Below, one piece after another: positions 2,264-27,854 of a stretch of 50,710 nucleotides of DNA; the stretch's first letter is position 1; every line of letters begins with the position of its first letter. The DNA lies in IMG/VR virus record IMGVR_UViG_3300028610_000533, positions 1 to 50,710 of that record, one strand, 5' to 3'. The position numbers were made by a program, and so were the translations under genes. The notes under the pieces were generated by a model, which saw nothing but the letters and a program-made list of their open reading frames with translations, did not search any database and was not told where the DNA came from. This stretch comes from a virus.

Positions 2264-4293
2264 AGAAACTGATATTCATTCTACTGGCATTGACCTCTGT
2301 TGCGTCGGGGTACTTCGAGATATCGAATGATGTGCCCAGTATATTCTCTGCAAGTTCAGATCAGCAATGGCGATTGTGGTCGGGTGGTGATTTGGCGGCT
2401 GAGTTATTTAACAACTCCAGCGGCATTTTGTTTGATGAAGAATTACAGATTGTTGTTATAGGCAAATTTACGCCTGGAACAGCACAAACCTTAACTACCA
2501 CGGTAGGCTTCAATGCAGGGCTTGACCATTTAGTTGGCGGGACTACATCCCTTGGGTTTTTTGCAGGATTTATGAATGCTGGTGTCGATGCTGTTTCCGT
2601 GGGTGATAGGTCGGGCGAACATAATACTGGTGCTTCAGCAACAGGAATTGGCCCTTTTGCTTCATTTCAGAATACGGGGTTGGATTATGCCGGAATAGGG
2701 AATCTTTCCGGGCAATTTAATGATGGCAACCAGAATACCGCACTGGGTTCGCGTTCGTTTACAACATGGACAGCGGACACGGGAAGCGCAAAAGCGATAG
2801 CCAGTGTCGATGTCCCTAATCAACAGGTAACAATAACGGCGGGGGGCGGGCATGGCTTTGGTAGTGCCGGGGAATATCTTAATCTGCGAATGACTACTAC
2901 TGGAACGCTACCTGCTGGCATGAACGCCACAAGTAATATCTGGAAAGTAATAGATGCGACTACGATGGAATTGTATTCTGGGAGAATAACTTTCACGGAT
3001 ACAGGCACGGGGACACACACACTCACCCCGCAAGTCATTTATGATAATTCCACCGCAGTAGGCTTCGACGCCGAACCAACCGCCTCGAATCAGGTTGTAT
3101 TGGGTGACGCATCCGTAACATCAATATTGACCACGGGTGCATTTGAATCGCCTCTGAAAGTCACTAACTCAACCGGCACTGATGCAGTCATTACAATGGA
3201 CGGCACAAGCACCAATCCTGCTGATTTCACCTATGAGAGCGATAACAGTGCGTTCGTGATTGGTGCGTTTGACTTTATTGTTGATGCGGCAGGTGGCCCC
3301 ACGCTGGTTGTCGATGCGGTGGGGGATACTGTTAATGGGGCGGTGTTCTTTGGGGATGCTAGTGATAACGTGTCATTTGGAACCTCAACTACTTTAGGAA
3401 GCCTGACAACGGGATCAAATAATGTTGCACTGGGTGATGGAGCGCTCCAGACTTGTACTGAGGGTATCAATAATTTTGCTCTCGGCGATCTCTCGATGGG
3501 GGACTTGACAACGGGAGACAGAAATGTTGGAATTGGTATTTTAACTCTACAACGAAATCTCGTAGGGAATAACAATATAGCCATAGGTGAGGCTTCTTTA
3601 CGAAACAATAAAAACCAAAGCAATGTTGCCATAGGAAGCAATGCAATGGTGTTTCAAACAACCGGCGACCGCAATACCGGCATAGGGGGTTTCACTGGTT
3701 ATCGAAATGTGACTGGTGACGACAATGTATGTATAGGGTATAAAGCAGGGCAGGGTATTACGGGCAACTCGTTTAGTTTTAATACTTATGTAGGAAAAGA
3801 ATCAAGCACTTTAATCGAAACCGGCAGCAGTAACGTATCCCTTGGTTATCAGGCTGGCTTTAACCAAACCACATTGAGTGATCGCCTCATCATTGACAAT
3901 CAGGACAGAGGTAGTGCGGCAGCAGAAATAACCGATTGCCTGATTTATGGTATCTTCGATGCCACGCCCGCCAATCAATCCTTGCGAATCAATGCCACAG
4001 TCAAGGCTACAGGTTACATAGTTGAAACCTCAAGGGTAACATCTTCTCCTTATGCAGTCCTCGCCACAGACGACAATATATTCGTAGATACTGACGGCGG
4101 GGCGATAACGGTTAATCTGCCTGCTGGTATCGACGGCAAGCAGTACAGGATTATAAACGTCGGCACATCTGGCAATGATGTGACGCTTGCTCCGGATGGG
4201 GCAGAGTTACTTAATGGCACAAATGCAAACATTAGTATTTTCGATGGCGAAAAGCTTATCTTTGTATACGAAGATACAGAAGGGTGGTTTTGA
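2260..4293 (+). CDS. Fibre-like protein with signal sequence and YadA-head-type repeats
   Basis: A 677-residue protein opening with MKKLIFILLALTSVASGY, a textbook Sec signal sequence. From about residue 85 and again from about 385 to 510 it has repeats of the form TGxxNVAIG and NTGIGG, each followed by a short aliphatic stretch. Such repeats make the left-handed beta-roll of trimeric autotransporter heads and of many phage fibres. The C-terminal 90 residues (VDTDGGAITVNLPAG...) resemble a terminal beta domain of tail fibres. A receptor-binding or adhesin role is inferred. It overlaps the previous gene by 4 nt. A signal sequence on a fibre is unusual. Confidence 0.6.
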   Translation: MKKLIFILLALTSVASGYFEISNDVPSIFSASSDQQWRLWSGGDLAAELFNNSSGILFDEELQIVVIGKFTPGTAQTLTTTVGFNAGLDHLVGGTTSLGFFAGFMNAGVDAVSVGDRSGEHNTGASATGIGPFASFQNTGLDYAGIGNLSGQFNDGNQNTALGSRSFTTWTADTGSAKAIASVDVPNQQVTITAGGGHGFGSAGEYLNLRMTTTGTLPAGMNATSNIWKVIDATTMELYSGRITFTDTGTGTHTLTPQVIYDNSTAVGFDAEPTASNQVVLGDASVTSILTTGAFESPLKVTNSTGTDAVITMDGTSTNPADFTYESDNSAFVIGAFDFIVDAAGGPTLVVDAVGDTVNGAVFFGDASDNVSFGTSTTLGSLTTGSNNVALGDGALQTCTEGINNFALGDLSMGDLTTGDRNVGIGILTLQRNLVGNNNIAIGEASLRNNKNQSNVAIGSNAMVFQTTGDRNTGIGGFTGYRNVTGDDNVCIGYKAGQGITGNSFSFNTYVGKESSTLIETGSSNVSLGYQAGFNQTTLSDRLIIDNQDRGSAAAEITDCLIYGIFDATPANQSLRINATVKATGYIVETSRVTSSPYAVLATDDNIFVDTDGGAITVNLPAGIDGKQYRIINVGTSGNDVTLAPDGAELLNGTNANISIFDGEKLIFVYEDTEGWF

Positions 4294-16138: not shown

Positions 16139-16529
16139 CTTTTACCTCGCTTTCGATAAGTTCGATAGACTTGAATAGGCGTAATGCGTATTTCACATTT
16201 CCAACAGCAAGACACCATGCAAGAGTAATGTCGCAATATGCGATTGTTCCAGTATGGGGAACAGTGAGGTTGGGCGAACACTTTAATGGGACACACCTCA
16301 CCTCATCCCCCGCAAACACGGCCTTCCCGTTCTTGTCGTCTGTGACATAGCGGCGGTTCCATGCGGCGATAAGTATTGCCCTTACCTCTTCATTAGTGAC
16401 TTTACCCGGAAACACCATCGTGCTTGACGCATTGCACTCAAAGCAACATACAAACCACCCATCTACCGCAATACTTCCATCTTGCATTTCCGCTTCGCCC
16501 CCGCAGTACGGGCATCTTTCAATTTCCAT
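16131..16529 (-). CDS. Lar-like zinc ribbon fused to YopX-like domain
   Basis: A 132-residue protein. Residues 1-60 form a zinc ribbon of the Lar restriction-alleviation type: CPYCGGEAEM at the start, CCFEC in the middle, and EEVRAILIAAWNRR at its end. Residues about 61-132 (DDKNGKAVFAGDEVRC..., then GTIAYCDITLAWCLAVG) look like a YopX-type phage domain. Lar proteins modulate type I restriction in Rac prophage, but most phage relatives are untested. The join of the two domains in one chain is inferred from the uninterrupted frame. Confidence 0.55.
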   Translation of the reverse strand: MEIERCPYCGGEAEMQDGSIAVDGWFVCCFECNASSTMVFPGKVTNEEVRAILIAAWNRRYVTDDKNGKAVFAGDEVRCVPLKCSPNLTVPHTGTIAYCDITLAWCLAVGNVKYALRLFKSIELIESEVKDE

Positions 16530-17319
16530 GCTCTATCCTTTCAAACGAAGTTTTCCATACGAATGGATTCCCCCGCACATACCACGGCAGTCCCTTGTGC
16601 TCTCTGGTTTCAGTTCCTTCCGCCCACGGGTAGGATTCGTAATGGGTGATTACCCCTTTGCGGCGGCGGGGGCTTGGTTTTGAGTAGCAGGCGCCCCAGA
16701 GTCTCGCGTAAGCCACAAACGGCTTAGTAGTCCAGAACCCATCCCCGCACGAGTATTCGGTGAGTTCCGGGTAAACATCGCCACACCGCTGCAAAATTCC
16801 TTCTGCCTCAATATCTGCGTCACTTATATCCTGCACCCGCTCCACCCCATCCCCTGTTACTTTAAGCCATGTACGGGCATCTTTTTTGGGCATGTGGATG
16901 GAGGGGCGCCATTTAATATCTGCCGCAGTTATATCAACATCGTCTCCGTGCTCAGTGTCTTTGGCATCCCAGTGCAGCGGCATATCAGCCCTATACAGGC
17001 AATATCCCAGAGCTTCCCCGCTACAGTGATCCTGCCACGTCTCCCGACAATAAAGTAAATCTCCGACAGAGCCGAGAGGGTTTCTGATTAGCGTGCAGTG
17101 TTGTGATTTGGGTCCGCGATTATTACCCCAAAACATATCCCGCCATACCATGTTTTCTGGGGGGCAACGGAATTGCAATACGCCTGCGTCACTTAATCTG
17201 CCTTCTGTATTGGGCAGTGTGTGACAGTCAAGCTTAATCGGTCTCCGCGTCTGCGTCTTTCGGTCTTCCAGTACAGCCAGATTCATCGGGCCGTTGAAAA
17301 GTACGGGTCGCTCTTTCAT
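16519..17319 (-). CDS. ASCH-like phage protein
   Basis: A 266-residue protein, start chosen at 17319 (MKERPVLFNGPMNLAVLEDR). The opening with KTQTRRPIK, the central GDLLYCRETWQ and RPSIHMPKKDARTWLKV, then VQDISDADIEAEGI and a C-terminal NPFVWKTSFERI are the conserved blocks of a widespread phage family related to ASCH/PUA-like folds. A nucleic-acid or modified-base binding role is suggested for the family, not proven. It overlaps the next gene (Lar-like) by 11 nt. Confidence 0.7.
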   Translation of the reverse strand: MKERPVLFNGPMNLAVLEDRKTQTRRPIKLDCHTLPNTEGRLSDAGVLQFRCPPENMVWRDMFWGNNRGPKSQHCTLIRNPLGSVGDLLYCRETWQDHCSGEALGYCLYRADMPLHWDAKDTEHGDDVDITAADIKWRPSIHMPKKDARTWLKVTGDGVERVQDISDADIEAEGILQRCGDVYPELTEYSCGDGFWTTKPFVAYARLWGACYSKPSPRRRKGVITHYESYPWAEGTETREHKGLPWYVRGNPFVWKTSFERIEHGN

Positions 17320-17552
17320 ATCGTTTTCCCCAATTTCTCTATCAATGGTTTCATCTGACATCCGACATAGTGTCCTTTATCTGTTTGTTTCACTAAACTG
17401 TTGAGAATCTGTGTTGCTATAGGATTATTGCAAGCTTCATAGTTCCAGTTAGCTTGCGCCCATGCGACCGGACACGGTTCTTCACCGAGGAGACAATTAG
17501 AACACTCATCGTCGAATACCATGCCTTCGCTGCCATTACTGAAATATGCCAT
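17316..17552 (-). CDS. Small Cys-rich phage protein
   Basis: A 78-residue protein from ATG at 17552 (MAYFSNGSEGMVFDDECSNC). The pattern CSNCLLGEEPCP, NWNYEACNN, ATQILNSLVKQ and a late Cys is a familiar uncharacterised phage family. The four cysteines suggest a metal site or redox role. The start is preferred over an upstream ATG at 17615, which would overlap the neighbouring gene extensively. It overlaps the ASCH-like gene by 4 nt. Confidence 0.6.
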   Translation of the reverse strand: MAYFSNGSEGMVFDDECSNCLLGEEPCPVAWAQANWNYEACNNPIATQILNSLVKQTDKGHYVGCQMKPLIEKLGKTI

Positions 17553-22652: not shown

Positions 22653-23282
22653 CTAAAAAGGAATATCGTCGGCGGGCGGAGCATCAGGATGGTCGCCCAC
22701 GTAATCAGGATTGTCACCGAATACTTCCTGCCCCCTCGCCATTGCTTGATGTTCTTGCGATGCAAGGATGATTTTCTTGATGCCGTCTGAAATGTCTGGC
22801 GAAATATTGCCTTGATGCTCAGTGATAGAATATTTGAGAATCTTATGCTCCGGTGATTTCTTTGGCATACCCGTCATTAGCGGCGTCACAGTTGCAACCT
22901 TCGCCTTGCCTTTTTCGTCATGGATGATTTGCAGTTGGCAATTGGCGGTAAGGATATTGAACAGGTCGAATTCAAGCAATTCCTCTTTAGTGAAATTCCG
23001 ACCCCGCCATGTAATCAGGTCTTTGTATAAGTTCGCCTTTTCATTAAGTGACAGGGTATAGAACTTAGACTGAGTTGCAGGCATGTTGATTTGCTCTCCG
23101 TCTTTGTCGTATTCCATTCGCTCATTCGGCAATTCCCATATAACGAGAACTTGACTTTGCTCGTTGCCAAATTTCTCGTTATAGTGTGTGCCCAACTGAA
23201 TCACAGCATAACATACCGCATGATGTGTTCCAGCCGGAGCAGGCTTAAAATCACCTCCTGTTTGACTTACTGGTAGTCCCAT
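22653..23282 (-). CDS. Phage single-stranded DNA-binding protein
   Basis: A 209-residue protein from ATG at 23282 (MGLPVSQTGGDFKPAPAGTH). Conserved blocks of a common phage SSB-like family: AVCYAVIQLGTHYNEKFG, VIWELPNERMEYD, FYTLSLNEKANLYKDLITWR, GRNFTKEELLEFDLFNIL. The acidic C-terminus ends in DDIPF, the same type of tip as bacterial SSB (DDIPF), which recruits replication and repair proteins. It likely coats phage ssDNA in replication or recombination and is the best-defined DNA-metabolism gene here besides NinG. Confidence 0.8.
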   Translation of the reverse strand: MGLPVSQTGGDFKPAPAGTHHAVCYAVIQLGTHYNEKFGNEQSQVLVIWELPNERMEYDKDGEQINMPATQSKFYTLSLNEKANLYKDLITWRGRNFTKEELLEFDLFNILTANCQLQIIHDEKGKAKVATVTPLMTGMPKKSPEHKILKYSITEHQGNISPDISDGIKKIILASQEHQAMARGQEVFGDNPDYVGDHPDAPPADDIPF

Positions 23283-23391
23283 TCTGTTTCCCTTTCTTAA
23301 TAGGTTCCATTGCGTCCCATGTTTCATCCGGTTTACGTTCCGAATTAGTTAAGTCTATGCCGTCTGCTTTGGCAAGTTCAATCTGTTGCAT
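23251..23391 (-). CDS. Possible 46-residue peptide overlapping the SSB start
   Basis: ATG at 23391 to TGA at 23251 in a frame different from SSB, overlapping its first 32 nt. Sequence begins MQQIELAKADGIDLTNSERK and ends with NRR. It fills a gap between two genes, but no good ribosome-binding site was seen and the overlap is long, so it may be spurious. Confidence 0.3.
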   Translation of the reverse strand: MQQIELAKADGIDLTNSERKPDETWDAMEPIKKGKQNGTTSKSNRR

Positions 23392-26175: not shown

Positions 26176-26466
26176 TTATTTCTTCCCGCCCAATGCTTTT
26201 TTGATCTGGGGATTGGTAGCCTCGATATACTTTTTCATCTCAGCCTCAGAAGCAATAGCCATAGCCATGCGGAACTCTACTGCCCCCCTGTGCATCATTG
26301 TCTGGCGGTTCTTTGCCACTGCCGACATCATCTTAACGGCAATCTTAACCTTGTCGCTATCCGCGTCGATCTGGTCGCTCAGGGCTTGCTGGATGATATC
26401 CATAGACCTGTTCTCAATTGCGCTCATTTTGTCCGCTTTTGCTTCTGTCATCGTTAAAGTGTTCAT
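26176..26466 (-). CDS. Small helical hypothetical protein
   Basis: A 96-residue all-helical protein from ATG at 26466 (MNTLTMTEAKADKMSAIENR), with AAAGGAAATG upstream. It is Met/Ala/Lys-rich with no Cys and ends QIKKALGGKK. Its start codon lies at the downstream border of the 5-nt periodic region, whose rhythm runs into its leader. Whether it binds that region is unknown. Confidence 0.6.
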   Translation of the reverse strand: MNTLTMTEAKADKMSAIENRSMDIIQQALSDQIDADSDKVKIAVKMMSAVAKNRQTMMHRGAVEFRMAMAIASEAEMKKYIEATNPQIKKALGGKK

Positions 26467-27185
26467 TTCATTTCCTTTCTCATATGGTCTGTTCATTTCG
26501 CCTTGCTTTCGTCTCGAATCAAATCGTGTCCGCTTCTCTCATCTACAATCAGCTTGTTTTCGCCTCAAGTCTTGTCCATTTCACTCAACTCAACTCAAAT
26601 TGCTTTCACTTCAACTCACATCTTTTTTCATCAAGCCAACTCATCGCTATTTGTTTTCAATTCAAGTCACATTTCATCTCTTCCATTCACATTGATTCGA
26701 TTCGCGTCCCGTTGTTCTCGCTTCAAATCTAATCCTCGCCTATCAAATCACTTCTCATGGCCTCACTTTGCTTTCAAGTCAAATCTCATCGTGTCCGTTC
26801 TCGTCCCATCATTTCCGCTCCACTTGATTTCAACTCTAATCTCATCCACTCGGCTTTATTCGGATTCTCTCCGTTCTCATTGTTTTCAACTCCAATCGCT
26901 TATCCTGCCTTCGCTTCTTGTGTCCTCTGTTCAGCTTGTTTTCAGTTCACATCCAATTCTCTCGGCTCTGGTCCAATCGACTCCGATCTCGTTGCTTTCA
27001 GATCTAAACAAATCATGTCTACTCAAATCGAGTGCCATCATATCAGCTTGCTTTCGTTTCTGCTCACGTCAATTCGCCTTCCATCGTTTCCATTCGTGTC
27101 CTATCACGTCTGATCATCTTGTTTTCAAATCTTCTCCCGTTCTCTCTTTACTGATCAGTTCAAATCACTTTGCTTTCCATTCTTT
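26463..27185 (-). repeat. Pentanucleotide-periodic non-coding array with 13 anchors
   Basis: Read on the plus strand the sequence is a chain of 5-nt words that mostly begin TC (TCNNN); on the minus strand, the operon's coding strand, this is NNNGA. Thirteen anchors TTGYTTTC (two variants, TTGTTCTC and TTGATTTC) begin at 26503, 26554, 26600, 26651, 26712, 26768, 26824, 26880, 26936, 26992, 27048, 27119 and 27170. Intervals are 51, 46, 51, 61, six of 56, 71 and 51, all 5n+1, because each anchor carries one 6-nt word. Stops fill all minus frames. The region lies between two leftward genes and is not protein-coding; function unknown. Confidence 0.9.
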
Positions 27186-27722
27186 CACAACGAACCGCCC
27201 GAATGTAGGCCCGTACACGCCCAGCCCGCAACGCATCCCTGCTACATCGTACATGGCATGAATGATATCTTCGGCTACTGAGTCGTCTGTTACCTGAACT
27301 TTGAAGCTACAGGCCCACGGGGTATTCAGAACGGGACGCTCACACGTCGCCCTGCTGTTGCTGGCATTGATGAATGACCGGATATCAATGTCATCGTGCT
27401 TTGTCCGCTTTGGCGTAAAGTACACCTTGCCGTTATCACCCATAACCCACACACACGCCTTGCAGAAATTGAGATACTTCGTGCCCTTCTTTGACTCGAC
27501 CTCGGAACCGTAAATCTTCGCCGCACCCGGACGGAACCTGTTGCCGATCAAGAGCATTCGGAGATTGTCGGTCGGGATGTAGACCCCCTTTTTGTCAATC
27601 CACATCTTTTCGGGGATGGTCTGCTTCTTCTGTTTCTTTGTATCGCCGGGCTTCTCAGGCAGGGGGAATCTGCTGAACATGATCGGAACGATACCTTCAA
27701 TCTTACATTCTACTTCATACAT
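27165..27722 (-). CDS. First gene of leftward operon; conserved phage protein, possibly RAMP-like
   Basis: A 185-residue protein from ATG at 27722, preceded by ATAGGAG. The order is a beta-rich start (MYEVECKIEGIVPIMFSRFP), a Lys-rich loop, YIPTDNLRMLLIGN, and a C-terminal Gly motif RCGLGVYGPTFGRFVVKEWK. The pattern, a small domain ending in a Gly-rich GxGxxxPxFGRF loop, is a known uncharacterised phage family and reminds of RAMP/Cas7-type ferredoxin folds; that link is speculative. It is the promoter-proximal gene and lies right next to the periodic array, into which its last 7 codons run. Confidence 0.6.
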   Translation of the reverse strand: MYEVECKIEGIVPIMFSRFPLPEKPGDTKKQKKQTIPEKMWIDKKGVYIPTDNLRMLLIGNRFRPGAAKIYGSEVESKKGTKYLNFCKACVWVMGDNGKVYFTPKRTKHDDIDIRSFINASNSRATCERPVLNTPWACSFKVQVTDDSVAEDIIHAMYDVAGMRCGLGVYGPTFGRFVVKEWKAK

Positions 27723-27822: not shown

Positions 27823-27833
27823 CTAAAGTATAG
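27823..27833. promoter_or_regulatory. Operator-like repeat, left copy
   Basis: CTAAAGTATAG overlaps the -10 element of the leftward promoter. An identical 11-mer lies at 27895-27905 over the -10 region of the rightward promoter. Matching sites on two divergent promoters suggest a shared repressor, though part of the match is -10-like sequence itself. Confidence 0.45.
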
Positions 27834-27854
27834 CACAGAATCGGCCCTTGTCAA
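27827..27854 (-). promoter_or_regulatory. Leftward early promoter (sigma70-like)
   Basis: Minus strand TTGACA (27849-27854), 16-nt spacer, TATACT (27827-27832). Both boxes are near consensus. It would start a transcript near 27820 that begins with the interleaved leader and serves the long leftward operon. Confidence 0.75.

Follow-up and report, generated by a model that had tools for sequence, protein, structure and literature searches.

A phage array of five-nucleotide GA-NNN words beside a Cas7-like RAMP gene: a probable VIPR guide locus

Organization of the locus

The window analyzed here is the whole 50,710-nucleotide stretch of IMG/VR virus record IMGVR_UViG_3300028610_000533, which carries phage structural genes, among them a head-tail connector, a GP7-like major capsid protein, and a terminase-like gene. 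On its minus strand, a gene for a 185-aa RAMP (Cas7-like) protein, here called vipr, is followed by an array of 5-nt words and then by a small gene of 96 aa, here called vap-like, for which family searches of the approximately 95-aa product gave no match (Table 1). The array had been described in the initial annotation as non-coding, but the region is not intergenic throughout, since the upstream gene contains the first anchor in its final codons and the array's closing words reach the ribosome-binding site of the next gene. Upstream of vipr stands a promoter-like site that could drive vipr, the array, and the vap-like gene as one operon, although promoter-like sites in the window as a whole are no commoner than in shuffles.

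Elsewhere in the window, the minus strand encodes an N6/N4 DNA methylase (PF01555; 17991-18743), an NGO0469-family phage replication initiation protein with relatives in Pelagibacter and Manatee Spring phages (22653-23327), and a phrog_874 protein, some of whose phage matches are annotated as RNA-binding or ASCH-domain proteins (16519-17361).

Table 1. Features of the putative VIPR locus, with positions in the window.
Feature	Position	Strand	Description or basis
Promoter-like site	27827..27854	-	TTGACA-16-TATACT, TG before -10, upstream of vipr; consensus scan, 11/12 matches
vipr	27165..27722	-	185-aa RAMP (Cas7-like) protein, glycine-rich loop GLGVYGPTFGRF; PDB 36pp match, phrog_4652, predicted fold
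Putative guide array	26460..27185	-	13 anchors, 12 candidate guide units between anchors, plus trailing GA-NNN words; anchors, words, phase HMM
First anchor	27170..27177	-	GAAAGCAA; within last codons of vipr, overlap also in several relatives
Candidate guide unit 1	27127..27169	-	9 triplets
Candidate guide unit 2	27056..27118	-	13 triplets
Candidate guide unit 3	27000..27047	-	10 triplets
Candidate guide unit 4	26944..26991	-	10 triplets
Candidate guide unit 5	26888..26935	-	10 triplets
Candidate guide unit 6	26832..26879	-	10 triplets
Candidate guide unit 7	26776..26823	-	10 triplets
Candidate guide unit 8	26720..26767	-	10 triplets
Candidate guide unit 9	26659..26711	-	11 triplets
Candidate guide unit 10	26608..26650	-	9 triplets
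Candidate guide unit 11	26562..26599	-	8 triplets
Candidate guide unit 12	26511..26553	-	9 triplets; codon reading ALDEAHFFD
Last anchor	26503..26510	-	GAAAGCAA; then trailing GA words merging into next gene's ribosome-binding site
vap-like gene	26176..26466	-	96 aa from conserved start MNTLTM; homologue after array in 11/12 related contigs

Word grammar of the array

Read on the minus strand from 27185 to 26460, the region is one array of 5-nt GA-NNN words. Of its 115 words, 93 preserve the dinucleotide GA, and the N positions, at approximately 0.04 bits apiece (0.02-0.03 after small-sample correction), are near-random. The autocorrelation of TC reaches 2.95x at lag 5, decays, and peaks again at lags 46, 51, and 56, while GA pairs in phase at lags 5, 10, and 15 number 195 against 75 +/- 7 (maximum 109) in 1000 dinucleotide-preserving shuffles. 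The 5-nt rhythm reported in the initial annotation is thereby confirmed, with the corrections that the meaningful strand is the minus strand and that the word is GA followed by NNN.

The words are punctuated by 13 anchors of a constant 8 nt with the minus-strand consensus GAAARCAA, each of which shifts the register by +1. They stand at intervals of 51, 46, 51, 61, 56 (six times), 71, and 51 and delimit twelve units of 46-71 nt. Both the number and the intervals agree with what had been claimed for TTGYTTTC; strictly, that motif occurs at 11 sites, the remaining two being variant anchors, TTGATTTC at 26824 and TTGTTCTC at 26712. When both strands of the 50.7 kb were scanned with a phase HMM that included a background state, this array (minus strand, 27185-26460) was the only one found, and all its phase steps were +1; under equal step penalties, 12 of its 12 steps were likewise +1.

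Tandem Repeats Finder did not report the region in the window, which is expected of a grammar rather than a repeat. A search of the region against Rfam returned no family, and the folding of the array RNA was not unusual (z=-0.74).

The vipr gene and its protein

VIPR (Viral Interference Programmable Repeat) was described in a 2026 preprint as a phage RNA-guided system composed of the Vipr RAMP protein, a vap gene, and vrRNAs of 9-16 YNNGG words, which recognise DNA with one base skipped per word and repress competing phages (PMC13142463). According to the main text of the preprint, there are seven types with words of GGY/NN "or a related consensus," some of them with staggered arrays and overlapping vrRNAs (PMC13142463); a literature search for VIPR or vrRNAs retrieved no further paper.

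The 185-aa protein of the window has no Pfam or NCBIfam family, and alone it matches PDB 36pp, the Vipr protein of SUSP1 (E=7e-4). A profile of ten homologues reaches the same entry at 3.9e-7 as its sole significant match, and hhalign against SUSP1 Vipr gives 96% probability across the C-terminal 72 columns. All ten homologues as well as SUSP1 Vipr are taken in by phrog_4652, and a plain tblastn search with the L097 homologue retrieves Viprs from LESphi2, Medea1, and SUSP1-type phages. A structure prediction based on five sequences scored low (pLDDT 49); the AlphaFold2 model used in its place was built from 11 sequences (pLDDT 82, pTM 0.76). Its matches include Cmr and Csm chains as well as further RAMP proteins, at a best E of 6e-5 and modest TM-scores of 0.4-0.57, and also a viral entry named "Cas system-associated RAMP superfamily protein." By homology and predicted fold, the product thus qualifies as a RAMP homologue related to SUSP1 Vipr, with a putative RRM core and a glycine-rich loop.

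Related contigs and turnover of the units

Relatives were sought in the viral collection by a scan for the pattern of one anchor together with four GA words and by two scans with Vipr profiles, which together yielded twelve contigs beyond the window, the near-identical L097 and L098 being counted as two and L104, with vipr in two pieces, as one; 11 of the 12 were confirmed jointly with the profile, and L129 was added later. A Vipr profile scan of the genome collection gave no match. In all 12 contigs, the GA-word array adjoins vipr, and the place after the array is held by the vap-like homologue except in L129, which has a RecT-like gene there. The anchor sequence differs by clade (GAACGCCAA, GAATTCAA, and GAACCCAA), and the phase steps remain +1 in 96 of 106 cases under equal penalties.

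Several arrangements within the family vary. The RecT-like gene of L129 directly follows the array, and a second array lies upstream of vipr (L129:2851-3175 and 3132-4193). Extra short GA arrays upstream of vipr are found in L109 (G004), L118, L125, and L129, and in L128/L104 (G011) the vipr frame is split in two pieces while the array and the vap-like gene persist.

The near-identical pair, L097 and L098, shares 574 of 579 positions in vipr and 279 of 279 in the vap-like gene, yet the arrays measure 761 and 607 nt, respectively; the units proximal to vipr differ, and the distal ones are common to both. Within the shared distal units, the two phages differ by two indels, of 5 and 10 nt, and by four substitutions, each of which falls on an N position. 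These differences, together with one duplicated unit in the L092 array, indicate that whole units are gained, lost, or replaced with the grammar retained. Renewal at the vipr-proximal end is seen in L097/L098, a single pair, which cannot establish a general polarity. The +1 steps of the relatives and the 5- and 10-nt indels of this pair bear out the maintained rhythm of the initial annotation; free drift by insertions not multiple of 5, which would have spoken against it, is not what the relatives show.

Two features bear on the position of the anchor within a unit. In L031 and L044, the array closes on an anchor with zero words beyond it, and in L092 the words that directly precede the anchor on its 5' side hardly vary, which suggests that the anchor is a 3' tail like those of the published vrRNAs. 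Counter to this, words run on past the last anchor in the window, L006, and L092.

Possible guide information in the variable letters

If the words are gapped copies of natural target DNA, the bases flanking each GA are expected to behave like neighbours in ordinary DNA. Position 5 of a word and position 3 of the next indeed follow the genomic odds of adjacent dinucleotides (z=3.7, permutation p<5e-4, r=0.85); the fit falls to r=0.71 at lag 2 and is absent at lag 3, the true distance in the array (r=0.25). A generic xGAy context is insufficient as the source (z=1.2), and the signature persists on dropping any single locus. The dinucleotide comparison of skips of 0 and 1 gave a log-likelihood difference of 2.1 +/- 2.3, which does not separate the two.

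In a codon-model test on 88 guides, z was 4.8 when each word was taken to carry three target bases and 3.6 when it was taken to carry four. In simulations, the corresponding values were 7.2/3.0 for three-base guides (5.5/1.7 if position 5 was random) and 2.5/8.4 for four-base guides, so that the observed pattern is nearer to simulated steps of 3 nt than of 4 nt. This signal is suggestive, since it is carried mostly by L092 and is not significant in the clade of the window. Stop-codon and codon-register tests had a mixed outcome by clade.

Searches for natural targets gave no convincing match in four pattern scans of the viral collection and one of the genome collection. A comparison of all guides with all VIPR contigs under ten reading rules found nothing above shuffles except a trivial self match, and concatenated triplets had no match in two BLAST searches of the phage collection. 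Scans of the viral collection with L092 guide 11 and L097 guide 9, position 3 being skipped, found none, in a register that may be wrong. The L100 guide reading TDPPYTVDYY with position 5 skipped had no match among viral contigs, and a widened pattern gave one out-of-context match, in Yersinia. Guide 12 of the window with position 5 skipped had five matches, of which at least three are the thymidine-kinase-like AFDEAQFFD, in frame; approximately two matches are expected by chance on a rough estimate, and the three represent one homologous family, so no target is claimed for it. A likeness to a methyltransferase motif (TDPPYGVDY in L108) was spotted after the fact in guide 2 of L100. Both resemblances are after-the-fact observations and serve as leads only.

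Proposed function and alternative explanations

We consider it highly probable that the locus is a phage VIPR system, made up of vipr, an array of guide RNAs, and the small vap-like gene in an accessory role. Membership of the VIPR family is well supported by the homology of the protein, the predicted fold, the conserved layout, and the type of grammar. The three elements are probably transcribed leftward from one promoter. Along the array RNA, each 5-nt word would be covered by a single Vipr subunit that grips the fixed GA and displays the variable bases. The anchor GAAARCAA may be a minimal tail or processing mark, which would close each guide and start the 5-nt register anew. If the locus works as SUSP1 VIPR does, transcription and processing would then yield a guide-protein filament that binds matching dsDNA of a competing phage or prophage and blocks its transcription, with about three target bases presumably presented per word. 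A ladder for a Cas7/RAMP filament with a 5-nt footprint, with the vipr product as a possible binder, was among the meanings considered in the initial annotation; this part is supported, although the ladder would not be a neutral one because its N letters resemble guide information.

A narrower reading is that the locus belongs to a VIPR branch with two fixed and three variable letters, in which each Vipr subunit presents three bases, the concatenated triplets match a contiguous target, the RNA guide is split every three bases, and the units are renewed mainly proximal to vipr. This is put forward tentatively, as a reading that we find rather doubtful in its full form.

The near-random N positions and the target searches that found none would also suit an array that serves as an RNA scaffold or decoy for a RAMP filament, in autoregulation of vipr or as a sponge for a host CRISPR RAMP, with the N letters unread. 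Unread positions should show neither the neighbour signature across GA nor the codon-model excess, the units turn over as wholes, and in SUSP1 VIPR the array serves as guides (PMC13142463), all of which make the scaffold or decoy improbable. A 5-nt periodicity with two words per approximately 10 bp, and the RecT-like gene that adjoins the L129 array, could point instead to a DNA element, such as a site on which an SSB or annealing protein loads or lines up, an origin, or a phased bend array. With the register stepped by +1 at each anchor, helical phasing is broken every 46-71 bp; the neighbouring gene encodes a protein of predicted RAMP fold; and RecT adjacency occurs in one of 12 contigs. We regard such an element as very unlikely, and neither the SSB loading site or origin nor the phased bending array raised in the initial annotation gained any support.

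Two further explanations are weaker still. The plus strand is pyrimidine-rich with regular TC, as a Rho-utilisation or other termination region on TC-rich antisense RNA would be, an option that had also been raised initially; the linked features (vipr, the vap-like gene, and the promoter-like site) all lie on the minus strand, Rho has no need of a strict 5-nt grid with +1 anchor steps, and in twelve contigs besides the window the array goes together with a RAMP gene, so that this reading has next to no probability. Open plus-strand frames of 252 aa in the window and 460 aa in L092 might be taken for real proteins, but TC words yield few stops, which explains the open frames, and anchor spacings of 46, 51, 56, 61, and 71 keep no reading frame; real proteins here are hardly credible.

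Significance

The GA clade can serve as a natural experiment on which bases of a guide RNA a RAMP filament grips and which it reads, and GA/NNN may give a denser code, with three letters per word rather than two. The head-to-tail array and the vipr-proximal turnover in the single compared pair are CRISPR-array-like, and this layout makes guide acquisition a testable question.

Comparison with known systems

The initial annotation knew of no described element with this grammar; VIPR vrRNAs are in fact arrays of 5-nt words (PMC13142463). Seven annotated Vipr phages examined as controls all have 5-nt arrays beside vipr, five with GG words and two with GC words, and word position 3 is semi-fixed in each of them (0.54-1.71 bits), compared with 0.02-0.29 bits across eleven GA arrays, one of them that of the window (0.03 bits). 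Thus, a word of the GA family consists of two fixed and three free letters, against three fixed and two free in the controls, with a purine bias at position 3 kept in the GA arrays of L118, L122, and L125. The GGY/NN consensus itself does not describe the GA/NNN words of the window, which form a variant of that code; they may or may not fall under the "related consensus" of the preprint, and, the comparison being with its main text, the variant may already be listed there (PMC13142463).

The nearest described system is VIPR type II of Escherichia phage SUSP1 (PMC13142463; PDB 36pp), which likewise has a phage-encoded phrog_4652 RAMP protein and, beside it, an array whose 5-nt words combine fixed letters with hypervariable ones; the small gene of the window would correspond to its accessory gene. 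The words of SUSP1 are GGYNN with T/C at position 3 (1.55 bits), whereas those of the window are GA-NNN; SUSP1 makes separate vrRNAs of approximately 100 nt with long structured tails, whereas the window has head-to-tail units with a putative 8-nt tail, GAAARCAA; and the accessory genes appear to differ. Vibrio phage 1.266 and phiHSIC resemble the window in having a Vipr homologue beside arrays of 5-nt words, in their case GCA-NN with three fixed and two variable letters, another departure from GGY.

With respect to class 1 CRISPR-Cas, CRISPR repeats with contiguous spacers were not found in the window, where 8-nt anchors alone separate the units and no matching tandem repeat occurs, and the guide is interrupted by GA every 5 nt, unlike those of class 1. 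Shared with class 1 are the predicted fold of Vipr, which resembles that of the Csm3/Cmr4/Cas7 RAMP filaments, the constant tag between putative guide units, and the replacement of units at one end in the single compared pair, and VIPR itself has been proposed as an ancestor of CRISPR.
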